Both the position numbers and the translations under genes were made by a program. Shown piece after piece: positions 6,754 through 15,854 of a stretch of 34,870 nucleotides of DNA. Each line of letters opens with the position of its first letter. Position 1 is the stretch's first letter. The notes under the pieces are model-generated. The model was not told the origin of the DNA. It searched no databases and saw only the letters and a list, made by a program, of their open reading frames with translations. The DNA lies in assembly GCA_028278405.1 (NCBI GenBank), contig JANQEK010000045.1, positions 1-34,870 on the forward strand, read 5' to 3'. This stretch comes from Nitrospinaceae bacterium (GTDB lineage: Bacteria > Nitrospinota > Nitrospinia > Nitrospinales > Nitrospinaceae).

Positions 6754-7758
6754 ATGCCGACAGAGACAACCGCTCAAGATTTGGAACTGGCCAAGGAACT
6801 ACTGGAAGCCAAGGAAAAAGTCACCCGCGAAATTCACAAGGTGATTATCGGGCAGGATGCCGTGATCGAGGATTTACTGGTCGCACTGTTTTCGCGCGGG
6901 CACTGCCTGTTTGTCGGCGTTCCCGGCCTCGCGAAAACTCTATTGGTGAGTTCCCTTGCGAAAATCCTCCATCTCAAGTTCAGCCGGATTCAGTTCACAC
7001 CGGACCTGATGCCGTCGGACATCACTGGCACAGAGATTCTCTACGAAGACCAGGCGACCAAACACCGGGAGTTCCGGTTCATTAAGGGTCCGATCTTTTC
7101 GAATATCATCCTGGCGGACGAGATCAACCGCACTCCACCTAAAACACAAGCGGCCCTGTTACAGGCCATGCAGGAACTGCAGGTTACAGCCGGTCCCGAA
7201 ACTTATAAACTGGACCAGCCCTTCCTCGTGTTCGCCACGCAGAACCCTATCGAACACGAGGGCACCTACCCGCTTCCCGAAGCTCAATTGGACCGGTTCA
7301 TGTTCATCGTCAACGTGGATTACCCGACGAAAGAAGAGGAAGTGGAAATCGCCCTGTCGACCACTTCCGGCCATAAACCGGAACTGGAAGTGGTGATGCA
7401 GGCTGATCGAATTCTGGAGCTGCAAAACCTGGTACCGCGTGTGCCCGTCGCCGAGCACGTCGCGCATTACGCGGTCGACTTGGTACAGAGCAGCCGGCCC
7501 GGCAACGGAGCCACTCCCAATTTCGTTAACGAATGGGTGAACTGGGGCGCGGGTCCCCGCGCTTCCCAATATCTGGTGCTTGCCGCCAAAGCGCGCGCAT
7601 TGATGGACAATCGCGTCGCCGCTACCGTTGAAGATATCCGGAGCGTCGCCCGGCAGGTGCTGGAACACCGCATCATCCTCAACTTCAAAGCCGAAGCCGA
7701 GAACATCAAACCCACCGACATCATCGACAAATTGCTCGCCTCCGTGAAAGCGGGATAA
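6754..7758 (+). CDS. MoxR-family AAA+ ATPase
   Basis: This 334-residue protein is a full-length MoxR-type ATPase (AAA_3 core plus lid). The Walker A is the MoxR variant GVPGLAKT near residue 55, Walker B is ILADEINR, sensor 1 lies in FATQNPIE, and the arginine-finger region is LPEAQLDRF. MoxR proteins are chaperone-like ATPases that mature or load cofactors into envelope or VWA-domain partners. It follows the DUF4175-like and peptidase genes on the same strand after an 82-base gap, a grouping that usually continues with a DUF58 gene and VWA/Bat genes. Here the next gene is instead the unrelated AT-rich PHP-ATPase, so the expected operon appears to be cut off. The start has an AAAGAGA just upstream. 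Confidence 0.95.
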   Translation: MPTETTAQDLELAKELLEAKEKVTREIHKVIIGQDAVIEDLLVALFSRGHCLFVGVPGLAKTLLVSSLAKILHLKFSRIQFTPDLMPSDITGTEILYEDQATKHREFRFIKGPIFSNIILADEINRTPPKTQAALLQAMQELQVTAGPETYKLDQPFLVFATQNPIEHEGTYPLPEAQLDRFMFIVNVDYPTKEEEVEIALSTTSGHKPELEVVMQADRILELQNLVPRVPVAEHVAHYAVDLVQSSRPGNGATPNFVNEWVNWGAGPRASQYLVLAAKARALMDNRVAATVEDIRSVARQVLEHRIILNFKAEAENIKPTDIIDKLLASVKAG

Positions 7759-7782: not shown

Positions 7783-7811
7783 TTGACAAAATAGGCCACT
7801 AGGCCTATTTT
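7783..7811 (+). promoter_or_regulatory. Promoter with a palindrome filling the -35/-10 spacer
   Basis: A perfect -35 box TTGACA (7783-7788) is followed after exactly 17 bases by TATTTT (7806-7811) as a -10 box. The spacer and -10 are occupied by a perfect inverted repeat with 10-base arms, AAAATAGGCC (7788-7797) and GGCCTATTTT (7802-7811), around the loop ACTA. Two readings are possible: an operator bound by a repressor controlling the PHP-ATPase gene, or a factor-independent terminator ending the moxR transcript, since the right arm ends in Ts. Both may apply. The promoter fits the position of the 7847 start. Confidence 0.55.
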
Positions 7812-7823
7812 TAGGTATACCTA
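7812..7823. promoter_or_regulatory. Perfect 12-base palindrome beside the promoter, possible operator
   Basis: TAGGTATACCTA is its own reverse complement. It sits directly after the -10 box, over the expected transcription start of the 7847 gene. The larger palindrome next to it shares the half-site TAGG, so two related dimeric binding sites are possible. No regulator gene is adjacent. Confidence 0.45.
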
Positions 7824-7846
7824 TCAATTAGTTTATCTAGGGTTTT

Positions 7847-10645
7847 ATGGATAAGGGGGCACATTTCTATCGTTGTGATTTTCAAGTTCATACACCTAGG
7901 GACATAAATTGGAAAGGCGAGCGACCAACTACGGAGAGTGAGCGTAAGAAATACGCTGAAGAATTCATCAAAGCATGTCGAAAGCGTGGGCTTGATGCAG
8001 TTGCAATAACTGATCATCATGATGTGGCTTTCTTCCCATTTATTAAAAATGCTGCAGAAAATGAAATCGATGAAAATGAAAAACCAGTTCCGTTAAAAAA
8101 TCGAATTATTGTTTTTCCAGGAATGGAGTTAACACTAGTTCCAATCCAAGCACTTCTTATATTAAGCTCGGATTTTTCTGTAGACCTCTATCAAAACCTT
8201 CCAACCATCTTACAAATTTCTGAAAATTCTGCTTCCGCACCAACACATGCAGAGGTTGAACCATTAGATCACATCAAAACACTTCCAGAACTCTATAAAA
8301 GACTTGACAATACAGACTATCTTAAAGGCAAGTATATTGTTCTCCCACATGTTCAGGAAAAAGGTCATAAAACTATTTTTAGAAACGGATTAGCCCCCCT
8401 TTATAAGGAAATGCCTTGTGTAGGTGGATATTTAGATGGACCTATAACAAATTTAAGCATTGGCAAAAAAAACATCATCGACGGAAAACATGAGGATTAT
8501 GGTTTTAAGGCCTTAGGGGTTTTCCAGACATCTGATTGTCGAAATAGGAGTTTTGATGAATTAGGGACTCATTCTAGCTGGGTAAAATGGTCCAATCCAA
8601 CCGCTGAAGCGTTACGCCAAGCATGTCTTGCGCGACACACACGAATAACACATGAGGAACCTTTAATTCCTTCAGTTGTCATTCAGGGCCTCGAAGTTTC
8701 AAATAGTAAGTTTATGGGTCCATTAAATTTAAACCTTAATCCTCAGCTTAATTGCATTATTGGAGGGAGAGGAACAGGAAAATCTACAATTCTTGAATAC
8801 ATGCGATGGGTTCTTTGTGACCAACCTCCTCGAGCAACTGACGAAGACGAAGGAATTCCAGATTATGAAAAAAATAGATCAAGACTAATTCAAAACACAC
8901 TGGCCCCGTTAAATTCTGATGTGACAATTCATTTTCTCTTAAACGAAGTCCCACATTCAGTAAAAAGACAAGCCAATGACGGACAGGTATTCTTAAGAAT
9001 TAACAACGGTGAGTTTCAAGAGCAATCCGAAGAAGACATTCGAAAACTACTTCCAATTAGATCTTACAGCCAAAAACAACTTAGCGGTGTAGGCGATCGT
9101 AGTGACGAACTCTACCGTCTTGTACGTGGTCCCATAGTGAAAAATTTAAATGACCTTCAACAAAAGGGCAACGAATCAAAAGAGCAGCTCCGTGCACTTT
9201 ATGGGAAAATCAACTCCAAACGTATTCTAAAAAAACAACTTAAAAACGAACGCCTCGAACTACATTCACTAAACCAGCAGGCATCCCAGTTGCGCAAGGG
9301 ATTAACTGGACTCACAAAAAACGATCAGGAGATAATTAAAAAACACGAATTAATTGAAGAAGAAAAACGATTAGTGGGGGTATACGACCAAGGAATCAAG
9401 GCTCTTCTCGAAATCATTCAGTCCACCCAAACTGAATTCTCTTTACTAACTAGGGGAACGAAGATTGACGACAACCTACCTAATAAAGATTCTATTCTCA
9501 AACTAAAAGAAAAATACAACAAAATGTTACAGCTTGCCGAGGAAACGCTTGCCTCGCTATCCAAGAAACTCACAAAACAAGGAGAACTTCCAAGAGAATA
9601 CACTAAACTCCATCAAGAATGGCAGAATAAAATTAACAACCATAACAAAGCCTATGAGGCAGCAAAATCAAAAGCAACTTCTCATAAAGATAAACTTGAC
9701 CAAATATCGAAACTCGAAAAACGAATTCAGGAACTAACTAAACTAATTACTAAAAAAGAACAGTCGTTGTCTAGCCTTGGAAACCCTGAAACCAAATACC
9801 AAGAGACCCGAAAAAATTGGTTGAGCAGCTTTTCAAAAAGAGGAGACCTTCTCGAATCAGAATGCAAAAGACTAACCAGAGAATCCGATAATTTTATCAA
9901 AGCAACTCTCAATAGAGGAGCTGAGCTAAAAAATGTTTCTATAGAATTTAAAGAAATCACAAAAGGAACTCGAATTAGAGAAACCAAATGGGAAGAACTA
10001 CTTAATAATATTCGCTCAAATGTTTCCCCCACCAAAAAATGGGTTGAGCTATTAGATGAATTGGAGAAAATCGCTCAAATAGAAGATACTGAGGCTTCAA
10101 GAATCGACTTGAGCCAACTACCCATTCTGGATGCTAACAGCTTCAATGAAAATGAGCTAAATAAGTTATCACAAAAGTTATCTATCGATCAGTGGCTCGA
10201 ATTATCTTTGGTTGAGCTAGAGGACGAAATCAAATTTGAATACCAGCAAAAAAAAGACGAATTTATTTTGTTCTCGGATGCATCAGCAGGCCAACAGGCA
10301 ACGGCCTTACTAAAAGTACTTCTTAACCAGGACGGTCCTCCTTTAATTATTGATCAGCCCGAGGAAGATTTAGATAATGAAGTAATAAGGGAAATAATTG
10401 AGGATATCTGGTTAGCAAAAAACAAAAGACAGATTATCTTTACCAGTCACAATGCAAATATTGTTGTCAATGGAGACGCCGATTTAGTCATTGTTTGTTC
10501 ATATAAAACTGAAGGGGATCAGTCCGGCGGAAAGATTCGTACCAGCGGAGCAATTGATCAACCTGAAATCAAAGAGCTTATTACATCAATTATGGAAGGG
10601 GGACGAGAAGCCTTTCAACTGAGAAAAGACAAATATGGCTATTAG
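7847..10645 (+). CDS. PHP-domain/SMC-like ATPase, TrlF type
   Basis: The 932-residue product joins two modules. The N-terminal PHP metal-dependent phosphoesterase has the motifs DFQVHT, ITDHHDV, GMELT, VLPHV and TSDCRN within residues 1-240; the usual first HxH is QxH here. An SMC/RecF-like ATPase follows, with Walker A GGRGTGKST at 306-314, a long coiled coil (about 440-700), signature SAGQQATALL near 812, Walker B LIIDQPEED with D836, and the switch histidine in FTSHNAN. The order matches proteins named TrlF in databases (from memory). Such enzymes probably cut or process nucleic acid under ATP control; a role in phage defence is an inference. The gene is markedly more AT-rich than both neighbours (sampled lines about 30% GC against about 60% in moxR), has its own promoter and seems horizontally acquired. 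AGGG precedes the ATG. Confidence 0.88.
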   Translation: MDKGAHFYRCDFQVHTPRDINWKGERPTTESERKKYAEEFIKACRKRGLDAVAITDHHDVAFFPFIKNAAENEIDENEKPVPLKNRIIVFPGMELTLVPIQALLILSSDFSVDLYQNLPTILQISENSASAPTHAEVEPLDHIKTLPELYKRLDNTDYLKGKYIVLPHVQEKGHKTIFRNGLAPLYKEMPCVGGYLDGPITNLSIGKKNIIDGKHEDYGFKALGVFQTSDCRNRSFDELGTHSSWVKWSNPTAEALRQACLARHTRITHEEPLIPSVVIQGLEVSNSKFMGPLNLNLNPQLNCIIGGRGTGKSTILEYMRWVLCDQPPRATDEDEGIPDYEKNRSRLIQNTLAPLNSDVTIHFLLNEVPHSVKRQANDGQVFLRINNGEFQEQSEEDIRKLLPIRSYSQKQLSGVGDRSDELYRLVRGPIVKNLNDLQQKGNESKEQLRALYGKINSKRILKKQLKNERLELHSLNQQASQLRKGLTGLTKNDQEIIKKHELIEEEKRLVGVYDQGIKALLEIIQSTQTEFSLLTRGTKIDDNLPNKDSILKLKEKYNKMLQLAEETLASLSKKLTKQGELPREYTKLHQEWQNKINNHNKAYEAAKSKATSHKDKLDQISKLEKRIQELTKLITKKEQSLSSLGNPETKYQETRKNWLSSFSKRGDLLESECKRLTRESDNFIKATLNRGAELKNVSIEFKEITKGTRIRETKWEELLNNIRSNVSPTKKWVELLDELEKIAQIEDTEASRIDLSQLPILDANSFNENELNKLSQKLSIDQWLELSLVELEDEIKFEYQQKKDEFILFSDASAGQQATALLKVLLNQDGPPLIIDQPEEDLDNEVIREIIEDIWLAKNKRQIIFTSHNANIVVNGDADLVIVCSYKTEGDQSGGKIRTSGAIDQPEIKELITSIMEGGREAFQLRKDKYGY

Positions 10646-10698: not shown

Positions 10699-10833
10699 AT
10701 TTCGGACACTCTGATCCGGCAGTTTTTTGAAGCGGAAGGACTCATTGAAGATGCGCGAAGAATGATGAAACCTAGCAGAAAAATTAAGAGGCTTGTCTTA
10801 AGGAAGGTGACGCGGCCGGAAGCTTTGCGTTGA
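10699..10833 (+). pseudogene. Possible C-terminal remnant of a host gene, weak
   Basis: From a TAA at 10696 to a TGA at 10831 there is an open frame of 44 codons with no start codon. It encodes a charged helical sequence (it includes FFEAEGLIEDARRMMKPSRK) and has base composition like the host rather than the AT-rich gene before it. It could be the tail of a gene that once followed moxR and was cut by the insertion. It overlaps the end of the opposite-strand glycosyltransferase-like gene, so a chance frame is also possible. Confidence 0.2.
10779..10801 (-). terminator. Weak terminator candidate of the minus-strand membrane-protein genes
   Basis: On the minus strand the stem TTAAGA/TCTTAA (10784-10801, six-base loop) is followed by five Ts (10783-10779). 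The stop codon of the upstream gene lies inside the stem. The stem is AT-rich and short, so efficiency is doubtful. Confidence 0.3.
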
Positions 10834-12151
10834 GTTTTTTGCTCCAAAGCCACAATAAAGATGCGCACAAACCTAAAGTTGCAAAAAATTTCAAAGTGCT
10901 CTGAAAAGAAATCCCGACATCCCAGATTTTAAATACCACAGATTCTGCAGGCATGAAAAACCGTTGACCGAATTCCTGTGCGGTCACGGTCATCGCGTCA
11001 CCAGGAACGGCTGCAAAAGGTTCCAGGTAATACAACAGGTTCATCCCCACCGCCCACAGGACCGCCAGCAGCAGCCCCGCCCGAACCAACCTGTTGGCGG
11101 ATGATAAGGACTTCAACAACCAGGGAAAGATCAGGTGAATCACAGGAACAAACGGTAGTAAAAATCGGGGTCCCCAGCACATTCCACCGTGCCAGGCTTC
11201 CCATCGGGAATAGAACAACAAATAACAGGTAAAGGAGACCAAAGAAGTACCCAAAGCATACCGGCACCAGGATTCCATTTCATGATTTTTGAAAAGTAAA
11301 TAGAAAACACAAAGAAAAGTCAAAGGGGAAAAAACCAGCAATCCTTTCCAAAAAGAAAACATTAATCCATAGATGCCTGTCATCCAATTACCGGCAAACC
11401 CTTCCTCCTGATAGCCAAAATTGAAAAATTCTTCGTACCGGTAATAGTTGTAACTTAAAAATAGAACAAGACTTGCCATCAGAATCAGCATACCTTCCAG
11501 CGCAACCCGCCATCCCTCGGATGAATTGTTACGCCTGACACGCGACACCCAAACTACGTAAGCAATCATCAACACAAAATAAAACACAAAAATAAAACCA
11601 TTCAAGACGAGCAACCCTAGACATAAAAAGTTCTGCCGGTTGGCGGACACATAGTCAGCAGTTGGAGCCGTATAAAAATAGTAAAACGAAATCAGAATCA
11701 ACAGAGCGCTCAGCGGTTCTGAATACAAGCCTCCCGCGTAAGGCAAAAGAAATGTCGCGCAAAACAGAGCGAAGGCGGAAATGAGGCTGGTAGTGTCATC
11801 CATGCCCATGGTTTTCAGAATTCTGAAATAGACGACACATAAGGAAGAAATAACAATTGGGAGAAACAGGTAAAAGGTAAACAGATCTCCAATTTTCTGC
11901 AGATTCTGAGGCGGTGCATGGGTCAAAACGGCGAAATAGTAACCGGCAGCATAAAATGGAGCCATCAGCAATGATTGAAGAGGAGCGTACTTGACCGGGC
12001 CAACCGATGTAAGCAGAGAACCTTCCGTCACGAAGTAATGGCTCAATTCAATCCTGAAAGCGCCGTCAGGAAAGACAGCGAAAAAATGGCCGAGGCATAT
12101 AATCGCGATGTAAAAAATAAAACCCAGAAAAAATGTTCTCATCATCAACAT
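10784..12151 (-). CDS. Polytopic membrane protein, GT-C glycosyltransferase-like (copy 3)
   Basis: The 455-residue product is mostly hydrophobic, with about ten or more membrane segments. Near the N-terminus it has a conserved acidic position in an extracytoplasmic loop (FPDGAFR), then KYAPLQSLLMAPFY, an EPLSALL motif, and WHGGMCWGPRFLLPFVPVIH in the C-terminal half. These resemble ArnT/PMT-type (GT39-like) lipid-carrier-dependent glycosyltransferases, which move sugars from polyprenyl-phosphate carriers on the outer face of the inner membrane. The substrate cannot be told. The start ATG lies one base after the TGA of the upstream paralogue, so the two are translationally coupled. A second ATG two codons in is also possible. 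Two full-length paralogues lie directly upstream. Confidence 0.8.
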   Translation of the reverse strand: MLMMRTFFLGFIFYIAIICLGHFFAVFPDGAFRIELSHYFVTEGSLLTSVGPVKYAPLQSLLMAPFYAAGYYFAVLTHAPPQNLQKIGDLFTFYLFLPIVISSLCVVYFRILKTMGMDDTTSLISAFALFCATFLLPYAGGLYSEPLSALLILISFYYFYTAPTADYVSANRQNFLCLGLLVLNGFIFVFYFVLMIAYVVWVSRVRRNNSSEGWRVALEGMLILMASLVLFLSYNYYRYEEFFNFGYQEEGFAGNWMTGIYGLMFSFWKGLLVFSPLTFLCVFYLLFKNHEMESWCRYALGTSLVSFTCYLLFYSRWEAWHGGMCWGPRFLLPFVPVIHLIFPWLLKSLSSANRLVRAGLLLAVLWAVGMNLLYYLEPFAAVPGDAMTVTAQEFGQRFFMPAESVVFKIWDVGISFQSTLKFFATLGLCASLLWLWSKKLNAKLPAASPSLRQAS

Positions 12152-12152
12152 G

Positions 12153-13511
12153 TCAGGAAGCTTCGCTGGCGGAGAGTTTGGGAGCAGACACTTTCAGACT
12201 GAATACTCGTCTCCAAACCCATAATGCAAAAGCACAGCACCCCAAAATCACAGCGCCTTTCAAGGCTTGGGAACCGCCGATTCCCGAGCTGGCAATTTTG
12301 TAGATAAACGATTCTTCGGGAAGGAACACCCTGTGTAAAAACGGCATTTCATTGTTCATTTGATAGGCAACCCAGGGATCGGCAAAGATCAAAATATTGA
12401 TTCCCAGTCCCCAGACCAATGCTAATGCAACTACAATTCGCAACACCTTGTTTTCTTTTGATACCGATTTCCACAAGAACGGAAACATGACATGAATCAG
12501 GGGAACAAACGGCAGCAGGAACCGCGGTCCCCAACACCAACCGCCATGCCAGGAATCCCATTTTGCATACACCAGCAGATAACAAGCCAAAGAAATCAGA
12601 GAAGTGGAAAACAGGTATCGGTGTCCAGGTTTCATCTCCTGATTCCTGAATAAAAACCAGACCACACAAAAAACTGTGATCGGCGCAAATACAATCAGAC
12701 CCTGGCCGAAGGAAAATATCAAACCATACAAACCGACTGCCAGATTGTTGTTAAAGCCCTCACCGGGATATCCGAAGTTGAACCATTCACCGAAACGCGC
12801 ATAGTTGTAGCCGAGAAATAAAACCACACCGACGCTTAGGATCAGCAATCCCTCCCTCGCCACCCGCCAGGCTTCCAGGGAGCTCTTGCGCCGAACCTGG
12901 GAGTCCCAAAGCACATAGGTCAACATCAAACCGGCATACAGCACGAAAACAAAATTATTTAATATCAACAAGCTTAAGCAGAAAAAATTTCTTCGTTGGC
13001 ACGCCAGATAACCTTCAGATTGCGCTTTCAACAAATAATAAAACGAAACCAGTATCAGAAATGCATTGAGAGGCTCGGAAAACATTCCCTTGGAGTAAGG
13101 CAATAGAAATGTGCAGCAAAACAATGTGAAGGTCGTGACAATACTGATGTCATCATCCACGCCCAATTCCTTCAGAATCTTAAAAAACAAAACCAGCAAG
13201 GCGGCAACGAGTACCGGAAGATAAATAAGATTGCACATCCAGATACCCCACAAGAACAATTTATCCGCAGGCACATCGGTCAACATCCCATACAAATAAC
13301 CGATCGCATAGGTTGGTATCATTAATACGGATTGAAGGGGAGCGTAGTTGATCGGACCGTGGGAAGTGATGAAAGATCCTTCGGTCATCAAAGAATGGGT
13401 GAGCGCCAACCTGAATGTTCCATCTGGATTAAACGTATTGAATGCACCCAGGAAAATCATACCCAGATAAAAAATCAATCCAAACGAAAAGACTTTGACA
13501 AAGGATTTCAA
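12153..13511 (-). CDS. Polytopic membrane protein, GT-C glycosyltransferase-like (copy 2)
   Basis: The 452-residue product is closely similar in plan to the copies on both sides. It has an N-terminal membrane segment and loop acid (NPDGTFR), NYAPLQSVLMIPTY, EPLNAFLILVSFYY, and WHGGWCWGPRFLLPFVPLIH. Shared motifs at the same spacing show that the three genes arose by tandem duplication. By family resemblance it should transfer sugars from an undecaprenyl-phosphate-type donor to an envelope glycan, lipid or protein; this is an inference. Its end nearly abuts the start of copy 3 (TGA, one base, ATG). A 160-base gap separates it from copy 1 and could hold its own promoter. No glycan-synthesis genes are adjacent to suggest a substrate. 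Confidence 0.8.
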   Translation of the reverse strand: MKSFVKVFSFGLIFYLGMIFLGAFNTFNPDGTFRLALTHSLMTEGSFITSHGPINYAPLQSVLMIPTYAIGYLYGMLTDVPADKLFLWGIWMCNLIYLPVLVAALLVLFFKILKELGVDDDISIVTTFTLFCCTFLLPYSKGMFSEPLNAFLILVSFYYLLKAQSEGYLACQRRNFFCLSLLILNNFVFVLYAGLMLTYVLWDSQVRRKSSLEAWRVAREGLLILSVGVVLFLGYNYARFGEWFNFGYPGEGFNNNLAVGLYGLIFSFGQGLIVFAPITVFCVVWFLFRNQEMKPGHRYLFSTSLISLACYLLVYAKWDSWHGGWCWGPRFLLPFVPLIHVMFPFLWKSVSKENKVLRIVVALALVWGLGINILIFADPWVAYQMNNEMPFLHRVFLPEESFIYKIASSGIGGSQALKGAVILGCCAFALWVWRRVFSLKVSAPKLSASEAS

Positions 13512-13671
13512 AAAGCACCCTGCCCTTCTCCAGACACTTGGAAAATGCGCCTAAGGAGTTCGGTTCCAAAGAGTTATGCCGATTCCACAATAAATTATTA
13601 TCGCATATGGCCCTTTATTTTCAACTGAACCGGCAATTCCTGGTAAGCGTAAAAAAGATGGAAATGTCCTG

Positions 13672-15033
13672 TTACGAGACGGGAATTTTGTGGCGATCGG
13701 AGCGGAGTTCCGGCCAGCGGGCCCAGCCCCATAAAGCCAAGGTAAGAAGAATGGTCATCACAAAAAACTTGCTGAACGCCGGCAGAATATCTTTCCATTC
13801 CCCGTTGTTGAACAGGAAGGAATATTCCGGAAGCCAGAGAGTGTACGCGTACGGTTTGGGATCGGCCACTTTTCCAAAGGTGGCGCTCTGGAAAGTTTCC
13901 CACTGCCCAACGTATTCCCAACCGTTGAGGAAAACCGCCCACAATATCAGGATTGCTCCCAATCCTTTGATCCACATGTTTGCTTTTTGAGCGCTTTTCC
14001 AGACATAGGGAAAAATCAAATGAATGATCGGAAGAAAAGGTAAAAGGTACCGGGGACCCCAGCAATAACCTCCGCTCCAGGTTCCCCATTTGCAATACAG
14101 CAAAACGTAACAAATAAACGACACGCCGAATGCACCCAGACAAAAACGCAACTTGGATTCAATTTTCTGATAGTTAAATAGAAAAAACAGAAGACAAACG
14201 ATGGTAAGGGATGAATAGACCATCAACCCGCGTCCGAACGAGAAAAAAAGCCCGTAAACCCCTTCCACCACGGGAGTCGTGAATCCCTCATCCTCATATC
14301 CAAAAGTCCAGACCGAACCATAACGGATAAAATTATAGTAAAGAGAAATTGCGATCGAGATCGCCATCAGCCCCACCCCCTCGCCAAACGCCCTTCTGGC
14401 CTCTCCGGGTTTTGCCCGGTTGGTGTAACTGGCGGCAAACACAAACAGGAGCATCAACCCAAAATAACCTTCAAAAATAAAATTGTTCAGACACAGCAAA
14501 GTTAAAAATAGAAAGTTATATCGGTTGTTGACTACAAATTTTCCGGACAGGGATCGCCAGAAAAAATAAAAGGAGCCAAGGATGAGCAATGCATTCAGAG
14601 GTTCTGAAAAAAGAATCCTCGAATAAGGAAGGAAGTACGTCCCCAGAAACAAAAGAGCGGTGGAAACCAGACTGACCGGAGTCTCCCAACCCATTTCTTT
14701 TTGAATTCTAAAAAAAAGAACGCACAAAGTAGCGGTGATCAACGGCATAAACAGGGAAGCGCAGGATTTGATCCCGGAGAAATGCAGTGAAACCGGATCC
14801 GCACCTTGAGACAACCCGTAAGAATAGCCCAACGCATAAAACGGCACCATCAATAGCGGTTGTAAAGGCCCATATTTGGACGGCCCAAAATAAGGGCTCT
14901 CCCATTGATGATCCACCAGAAGAGAGCGAGCCACTTCGGCCCTCTGGAAACCGTCCATGGTCCCGTGCGAAAATTTTCCCAGGAAAAGAATGGCCAGAAA
15001 AAAAATGAGGCCTAAAGCCAGGTATCGGCGCAT
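13672..15033 (-). CDS. Polytopic membrane protein, GT-C glycosyltransferase-like (copy 1)
   Basis: The 453-residue protein heads the minus-strand trio. It keeps the common motifs: loop acid in TMDGFQR, KYGPLQPLLMVPFYALGY, EPLNALLILGSFYF, and WSGGYCWGPRYLLPFLPIIH, spread over many membrane segments. It is the most divergent of the three near its C-terminus. A role as a lipid-carrier-dependent glycosyltransferase of the inner membrane is inferred from the PLQ..L and GPR.LLP.LP patterns typical of GT39/ArnT-like proteins. The ATG at 15033 follows an AT-rich upstream stretch with only a weak ribosome site. Its promoter should lie in 15034-15191, shared with the end of the exonuclease gene upstream on the same strand. 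Confidence 0.8.
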   Translation of the reverse strand: MRRYLALGLIFFLAILFLGKFSHGTMDGFQRAEVARSLLVDHQWESPYFGPSKYGPLQPLLMVPFYALGYSYGLSQGADPVSLHFSGIKSCASLFMPLITATLCVLFFRIQKEMGWETPVSLVSTALLFLGTYFLPYSRILFSEPLNALLILGSFYFFWRSLSGKFVVNNRYNFLFLTLLCLNNFIFEGYFGLMLLFVFAASYTNRAKPGEARRAFGEGVGLMAISIAISLYYNFIRYGSVWTFGYEDEGFTTPVVEGVYGLFFSFGRGLMVYSSLTIVCLLFFLFNYQKIESKLRFCLGAFGVSFICYVLLYCKWGTWSGGYCWGPRYLLPFLPIIHLIFPYVWKSAQKANMWIKGLGAILILWAVFLNGWEYVGQWETFQSATFGKVADPKPYAYTLWLPEYSFLFNNGEWKDILPAFSKFFVMTILLTLALWGWARWPELRSDRHKIPVS

Positions 15034-15191: not shown

Positions 15192-15854
15192 TTACTTTCT
15201 CAAAAGAGCATCAAGCGTCCAATCGACGTTGAGGCGGTTGCGGCCGGTTTTGCTGCGGCTGGTGTATTCAACGTAACCGTTATCGGCACCGAACAGAAAC
15301 AGGTCGCGGGTGATTTTCACGTCCATCTTGCAGTACTCGATAATTTTGTCGAGCTTGGATTTGTCCCCCGCCAAATATTCCTTGTACCATTTGAGCGACT
15401 CCAACCCATCGGCGGTTTTCTGCGCCCCGAGCGAGCATTCGGCAAGGTTGTTGAGGCTGAGCCGGTGATTCAATTTCTTATGCACATCGGCCAGCATGTC
15501 GAAGGTTGGTATCTCCAAAAGATCGATATGCTTCTCATTAGCATAGGGTTGCAGGACGGTGTAGTCGAATCCGATAACGTTAAAGCCCACTACCAAATCC
15601 GCCGTTTTCAGCTTGTCGACCAGTTTCAGCGCGTCGACTTCCAGATAAGTGAAGTAGTCCTCGTCCACGCTGTCCCACACCACTCCCACTGCGAGACCCA
15701 TCTTGTGGATATTGCCCCAGCCGCCCACGTCATCCGCGCTCTTCTGGGTTTCCAGGTCAAAATACTGGATTCGGGGACCCGATGTCTCTGGCTGGGGCGG
15801 TTCGGGAGCCGTTTCCGGAGGGGGATCTGCAAATAAATCGAACTGTTCGGCCAT
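15192..15854 (-). CDS. RNase H-fold 3'-5' exonuclease (DnaQ/YprB-like)
   Basis: The 220-residue protein has the three exonuclease motifs of the DEDD superfamily: Exo I in YFDLETQ (D33, E35), Exo II in VVGFNVIGFDY near residues 92-102, and Exo III in YCKMDVKITRDLF, with an aspartate in the YxxxD arrangement. The first 28 residues are a Pro/Glu-rich disordered lead that contains QFDLF, which resembles a clamp-binding motif (Q-x-x-L/F-F). If that is real it would tie the enzyme to the replication clamp. The likely activity is metal-dependent 3'-5' degradation of DNA or RNA. The gene stands alone between the membrane-protein trio (same strand) and the divergent flagellar genes. Confidence 0.82.
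   Translation of the reverse strand: MAEQFDLFADPPPETAPEPPQPETSGPRIQYFDLETQKSADDVGGWGNIHKMGLAVGVVWDSVDEDYFTYLEVDALKLVDKLKTADLVVGFNVIGFDYTVLQPYANEKHIDLLEIPTFDMLADVHKKLNHRLSLNNLAECSLGAQKTADGLESLKWYKEYLAGDKSKLDKIIEYCKMDVKITRDLFLFGADNGYVEYTSRSKTGRNRLNVDWTLDALLRK

Follow-up and report, generated by a model that had tools for sequence, protein, structure and literature searches.

Ppl of Escherichia coli is a single-gene anti-phage system, a 3'-5' ssDNA exonuclease that is inhibited by NTPs and activated by 3'-OH ends (PMC12904381). In Photorhabdus, trlF is tied to a temperature-restriction operon; a role against phages was not shown in that study, which included no mutation in trlF and in which trlG carried the phenotype (PMC7554251). 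On PHP-SMC defence our literature searches found only Ppl (in a review article) and an 'AAA-like ATPase' pair without a name (PMC12255303), and on TrlF proteins they found little. PHP domains that bind metal hold three metals by nine residues; of these nine, the PHP domain of E. coli Pol III has lost five, including the first His and the last His, which is Arg there, and it does not bind metal (PMC3666897).

The gene analysed here lies in a window of 34,870 nucleotides, the whole stretch of DNA under study, from a Nitrospinaceae bacterium (contig JANQEK010000045.1). Like other members of the TrlF family its product joins PHP to a split ABC/SMC ATPase and its distribution is patchy and plasmid-associated; it differs in belonging to a QxH[ST]PRD clade with DHH and DxR/K motifs, and in having no trlR or trlG partners. 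With Ppl it shares the architecture and the single-gene state, and homology is detectable over residues 207-927, but it is 21% identical to a Vibrio protein annotated as Ppl, in which HxH, SDHN, LAH and TDSH are retained, and its score in the Ppl equivalog model (NF042955) is far below the cut-off (179.8 vs 1000 bits). The Photorhabdus temperature restriction locus (trlR-trlF-trlG) resembles it in the family name of trlF and as horizontally spread cargo between housekeeping genes, but trlG and trlR are absent beside the window gene, whose neighbours are moxR and an opposite-strand membrane-protein gene. Rad50, SMC, RecN and JetC are similar in their heads, whose fold is predicted for the window protein, and in their coiled-coil arms; the window protein departs from them in its N-terminal PHP domain, its short arms and the lack of an Mre11, kleisin or JetD partner. 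EndoQ, PolC and Pol III share the PHP fold at 11-18% sequence identity, with a metal-ligand set that is altered in the window protein.

Family, fold and composition

The gene and the parts of its product are as follows.

7847-10645, + strand: trlF-family gene, 932 aa, PHP-SMC/Rad50-like ATPase; uninterrupted ORF
7847-8671, + strand: PHP-fold N-terminal domain, residues ~1-275 (modelled by itself: pLDDT 93.3, pTM 0.90)
8762-8788, + strand: Walker A GGRGTGKST; K312 and S313 invariant
9104-9886, + strand: coiled-coil arms within the ATPase, residues ~420-680, from AlphaFold2 secondary structure and SMC/Rad50 matches
10283-10369, + strand: ABC signature ASAGQQ and Walker B IIDQPEEDLD, conserved in homologues

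The assignment to TrlF made in the original prediction was borne out by a search against family and defence-system models: the protein scores 536.6 bits with NCBIfam NF045780 (TrlF family AAA-like ATPase), residues 3-931 aligning to positions 1-944 of the 944-position profile, and thus passes the curated cut-off (350 bits) along the full model, while its best PADLOC match is Ppl (PDLC02208). In Pfam it matches AAA_23 and AAA_21, with PHP (PF02811) below threshold. An AlphaFold2 model of the whole protein, built from an alignment of 56 clade members, has a mean pLDDT of 88.2. By Foldseek the whole protein resembles the heads of Smc, Rad50, JetC, MukB and RecN, and the N-terminal part best matches EndoQ (E 2.6e-7, prob 1.00), followed by PolC, PHP phosphoesterases and the PHP domain of Pol III. 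A sequence search of solved structures with a PHP profile gave no PHP match; the fold search did place the domain, and in the model the N-terminal domain is a PHP fold. Since the NCBIfam and Pfam matches and the Foldseek placement of both parts agree, the predicted fusion of PHP to a RecF/SMC-like ATPase, with split ABC/SMC heads and a coiled coil, holds. A His switch (SHNAN) is also present, so that Walker A, signature, Walker B and His switch are all intact, and all are conserved in homologues.

The gene, which begins 88 bp behind moxR, has a GC content of 38.0% against 56.0% for moxR, and a GC3 of 0.31 against 0.69 for moxR and 0.50-0.69 for every other gene compared. Its codon-usage divergence (0.32) is the highest among 17 window genes measured, the others lying between 0.02 and 0.15. 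GC, GC3 and codon usage thus agree with the earlier claim of an AT-rich gene between dissimilar flanks; the contrast of 30% to 60% given then fits extreme lines only, as lines of 60 bases range from 27 to 48% GC in trlF and from 45 to 67% in moxR. The gene is horizontally acquired. TrlF is a known, under-studied family, and the window protein belongs to a variant clade of it at a well-defined acquired locus.

A variable slot between moxR and an exonuclease-like gene

The insert, which extends from ~7760 to ~15190 (7.4 kb), consists of trlF and three genes for membrane proteins, and is bordered by two further genes.

6754-7758, + strand: moxR AAA ATPase gene, left border
10784-15033, - strand: three tandem membrane-protein paralogues of 452-455 aa, rest of the insert; no Pfam match
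15192-15854, - strand: RNase_H_2 exonuclease-like gene, right border

The region downstream of moxR was compared across relatives. The window gene is missing from all 60 nearest genomes, so that none of these relatives shares it at this locus, and the slot is either empty or holds other genes. As an example, the interval between moxR and the exonuclease-like gene is ~150 bp in G001, of the same genus, 62 bp in G012 and ~200 bp in G010. G005 and G007 have a Peptidase_M74-like gene there; G016 has a HigB-like toxin and an HTH antitoxin (HigA-like; both at L051 4773-5381) plus another ORF; G008 has an 84-aa ORF (L049 13062-13316) with a weak CARF_HEPN match (E ~0.001), perhaps a gene remnant. In G002 a different AT-rich ORF, cut by the contig end, begins right after a hairpin that is common with the window. 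Both flanks of the slot align to G005, at 82-87%, which speaks against a chimeric contig.

The three membrane paralogues are 40-49% identical to each other, have 7-8 predicted TM segments, and gave no Pfam or PHROGs match. They have no close match in the genus, the nearest being 36% identical in G032, and because their codon deviation (0.12-0.15) is milder than that of trlF they may have arrived separately. The single-gene islet of the original prediction is therefore right as to presence/absence variation and too narrow as to extent, since these three genes are missing from the genus as well. That trlF had taken the place of a DUF58 gene was rejected: no relative inspected has DUF58 in the slot, and the best DUF58 of the genome (C11:125339-125974) adjoins another moxR (C11:126189-127106). 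We found no tRNA or Rfam element as an insertion landmark at the locus.

Three overlapping or adjacent elements lie between moxR and trlF.

7783-7811, + strand: promoter-like TTGACA (7783-7788), 17-base spacer and TATTTT (7806-7811); 10/12 consensus match, overlapping the hairpin
7788-7811, + strand: perfect 10-bp hairpin AAAATAGGCC-ACTA-GGCCTATTTT, then T's (z -4.0)
7812-7823: 12-bp palindrome TAGGTATACCTA, possible operator

The match to consensus is in keeping with the proposal that trlF brought its own promoter; against it, promoter-like sites in the region (7) are no more frequent than in shuffled sequences (6.5), and the site coincides with the hairpin. The hairpin ends in T's and is kept behind the moxR of a congener before other DNA, so that it may be a moxR terminator or an operator, either being as likely as a promoter. 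The element, TTGACnnAATAGGCCACTAGNCCTATTTTTAGGTAT, stands directly behind moxR in the window (7783-7823) and, nearly identical, in G002 (L047 3045-3080); among 8 genus members it is found in G000, the window genome, and G002 only, and different DNA starts right after each copy. A role as a multi-copy attachment repeat found no support, with one copy per genome in 2 of the 8 genus members.

The PHP site and its clade

The residues of the PHP site were compared in an alignment of 92 full-length relatives, the window protein included.

7877-7903, + strand: motif I, D11-F-Q13-V-H15-T-P-R-D19, Gln for the first His; Q13, H15 and D19 in 69/69 clade members
8012-8020, + strand: motif II, D56-H57-H58; mostly TDHN or TNHN in other TrlF/Ppl
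8126-8128, + strand: Glu94, motif III acid; E in 92/92 sequences
8348-8350, + strand: His168, probable ligand, kept in the window protein; Asn in 48/69 clade members
8534-8542, + strand: motif IV, D230-C-R232; canonical relatives have His or Lys after Asp-x

The predicted Gln at the first metal ligand (DFQVHT) is present, yet it is no peculiarity of this protein: Q-x-H in motif I occurs in 69 of the 92 sequences, which form exactly one side of a split in the tree (support 0.984), while 20 of the 23 relatives outside have HxH. The substitution comes with further changes of the active site. D11, D19, D56-H57-H58, E94 and D230 are found in all 69 members and position 232 is R or K, while position 168 holds Asn in 48, His in 20 (the window protein among them) and Gln in one. 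Other TrlF branches and annotated Ppl mostly have HxH, [TS][DEN]HN, LAH and SD-x-H/K; the NCBIfam model does not require the HxH that the window protein lacks. Although one of the two probes of the genome scan was a Q-biased pattern, the clade is not an artefact of retrieval, because 27 of its members carry the Walker B probe sequence only, without the Q probe. In a second group of TrlF-like proteins (L139, L141, L143) motif I has degenerated to [LF]QVN and the PHP site is apparently lost.

In terms of the nine-residue metal site, as assigned by sequence alignment, position 1 of the window protein is Q and position 9 probably R, with H15, H57, E94, H168 and D230 present. Given the changes that the clade shares at position 1, and probably at position 9, its PHP domain may be non-catalytic; the strict conservation of the remaining PHP residues argues for a retained, altered function. 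As the site is altered, nuclease activity of the window protein is uncertain.

Distribution and restriction-modification neighbours

Of 77 genomes searched in the phylum, 3 (counting that of the window) have a TrlF protein that scores above the cut-off, and the nearest homologue is 47% identical. In the scan of genome contigs a single-protein query found nothing and an alignment query found homologues. Clade members are spread over many phyla, among them Omnitrophota, Patescibacteria, Actinobacteria and Proteobacteria. Plasmids (some conjugative) of sphingomonads, Agrobacterium and Hymenobacter carry them too, as do two IMG/VR contigs (L144, L145). The canonical HxH genes of the phylum are followed by a 390-aa ORF (L054 4193-5371; L056 3986-5170) that is TrlG-like by eye (AlbA_2-type ATP-binding protein).

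The neighbourhoods of homologues were surveyed at 51 loci, with heuristic ORF calls and modest numbers. On two sphingomonad plasmids the homologue follows type III mod/res genes at a distance of 8 bp; the Agrobacterium homologue begins ~30 bp downstream of a gene for a restriction endonuclease. Overall, 83 upstream neighbours included ResIII 9, N6_N4_Mtase 8, N6_Mtase 5, Eco57I 4 and Methylase_S 4. Among 111 distal control ORFs of the same loci there were 3 ResIII and 3 N6_Mtase; N6_N4_Mtase, Eco57I and Methylase_S, not being among the families listed, account for at most 1/111 each. These controls were restricted to at least 250 aa, since a first distal set averaged shorter than the upstream set. 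When six proteins of R-M or upstream-neighbour type were used as seeds against all called ORFs, matches appeared only at positions -4 to -1, those of R-M seeds nearly all at -3 to -1, and three of the matches were the seeds' own loci. The expected enrichment near defence genes thus takes the form of R-M genes directly upstream, above the distal control. The association is clear and not universal: most loci, the window included, have no R-M neighbour. The window gene is not in a defence island; its genome has a complete type I R-M system (hsdM, hsdS, hsdR) near a contig end (C25:323-6290; L162) and a IIG-like enzyme on contig C20, both unlinked to trlF, and no PF01555 match was found in it.

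Proposed function and alternatives

The family, fold, motifs, acquisition, slot variability and R-M neighbourhood of relatives are computed results; a defence role, sensing of DNA ends and any nuclease activity are inferred from there. We lean, if only slightly, towards an acquired PHP-SMC ATPase, related to Ppl, that would process DNA ends of invaders from a slot of gene turnover; the stand-alone defence enzyme of the original prediction is plausible. The gene would have landed horizontally between moxR and the exonuclease gene. The protein probably forms a dimer by way of its Rad50/SMC-like heads, which would bind ATP as well as DNA, the latter most likely at ends or abnormal structures; by homology, these ATP-gated heads would pass the DNA to the PHP domain and gate it, and the domain would process the DNA of invaders, like the related single-gene system Ppl. 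Since the clade often accompanies R-M genes, the natural substrate may be DNA cut beforehand by restriction or phage endonucleases, and the same linkage suggests restriction cuts as the supply of ends for many relatives. In favour of this reading we count the full-length TrlF profile, the PHP fold near those of DNA enzymes, the SMC-like heads with intact ATPase motifs, the foreign composition, the absence from relatives, the plasmid- and R-M-linked homologues and the activity of Ppl; against it, the lack of a defence island and of an adjacent R-M system, the altered PHP site, the weak Ppl score and the Photorhabdus study, in which trlF was not linked to phages. A more specific version, which we regard as a fairly long shot, makes the QxH[ST]PRD clade a distinct type of enzyme, in which an SMC-gated, rebuilt PHP centre (Gln-x-His, Asp-His-His, Asp-x-Arg) finishes restriction-cut DNA; if so, copies would in many cases move together with R-M systems, and solo ones, the window copy among them, would use other breaks, made by unlinked R-M systems or phage nucleases.

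The changes at three typical metal positions (Q13 and R/K232 in all members, Asn168 in 48 of 69) could also mean that the PHP domain of the clade is catalytically dead, a structural or ligand-binding module (for example NTP-sensing), with the ATPase binding or compacting invader DNA or partnering a nuclease such as an R-M enzyme. The E. coli Pol III domain that binds no metal (PMC3666897) likewise has Arg as its last residue of the site and lacks the first His, but D11, Q13, H15, D19, D56, H57, H58, E94 and D230 are invariant (69/69 or 56/56) across many phyla, a conservation stronger than expected of a decayed site, and the window protein keeps H168; we judge a dead domain unlikely, though deserving serious attention. 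Two further readings take the gene out of defence. A stress- or temperature-response gene like the Photorhabdus trlF, carried as accessory cargo, would accord with the operon from which the family is named (PMC7554251) and with a window copy that has no defence neighbour; it is improbable given that trlG rather than trlF carried the Photorhabdus phenotype (PMC7554251), that the window copy has no trlG-like neighbour, and that relatives are found on plasmids and downstream of R-M genes. That trlF is a passenger drifting without function in a hot spot appears more improbable still: it is orphaned from R-M partners and the slot of one family member (G008) holds only a short, remnant-like ORF, but its 932 codons contain no stop, and the ATPase and clade-specific PHP motifs are all kept at 47% identity to the nearest homologue.

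TrlF is a common annotation for proteins without a measured function. A widespread clade with a uniformly altered PHP site beside R-M genes leads to two testable questions: does the variant site bind metal and cleave DNA, and do these proteins act downstream of restriction? The window copy is a solo example, unique in its genus, and the almost empty site of a congener allows a comparison.
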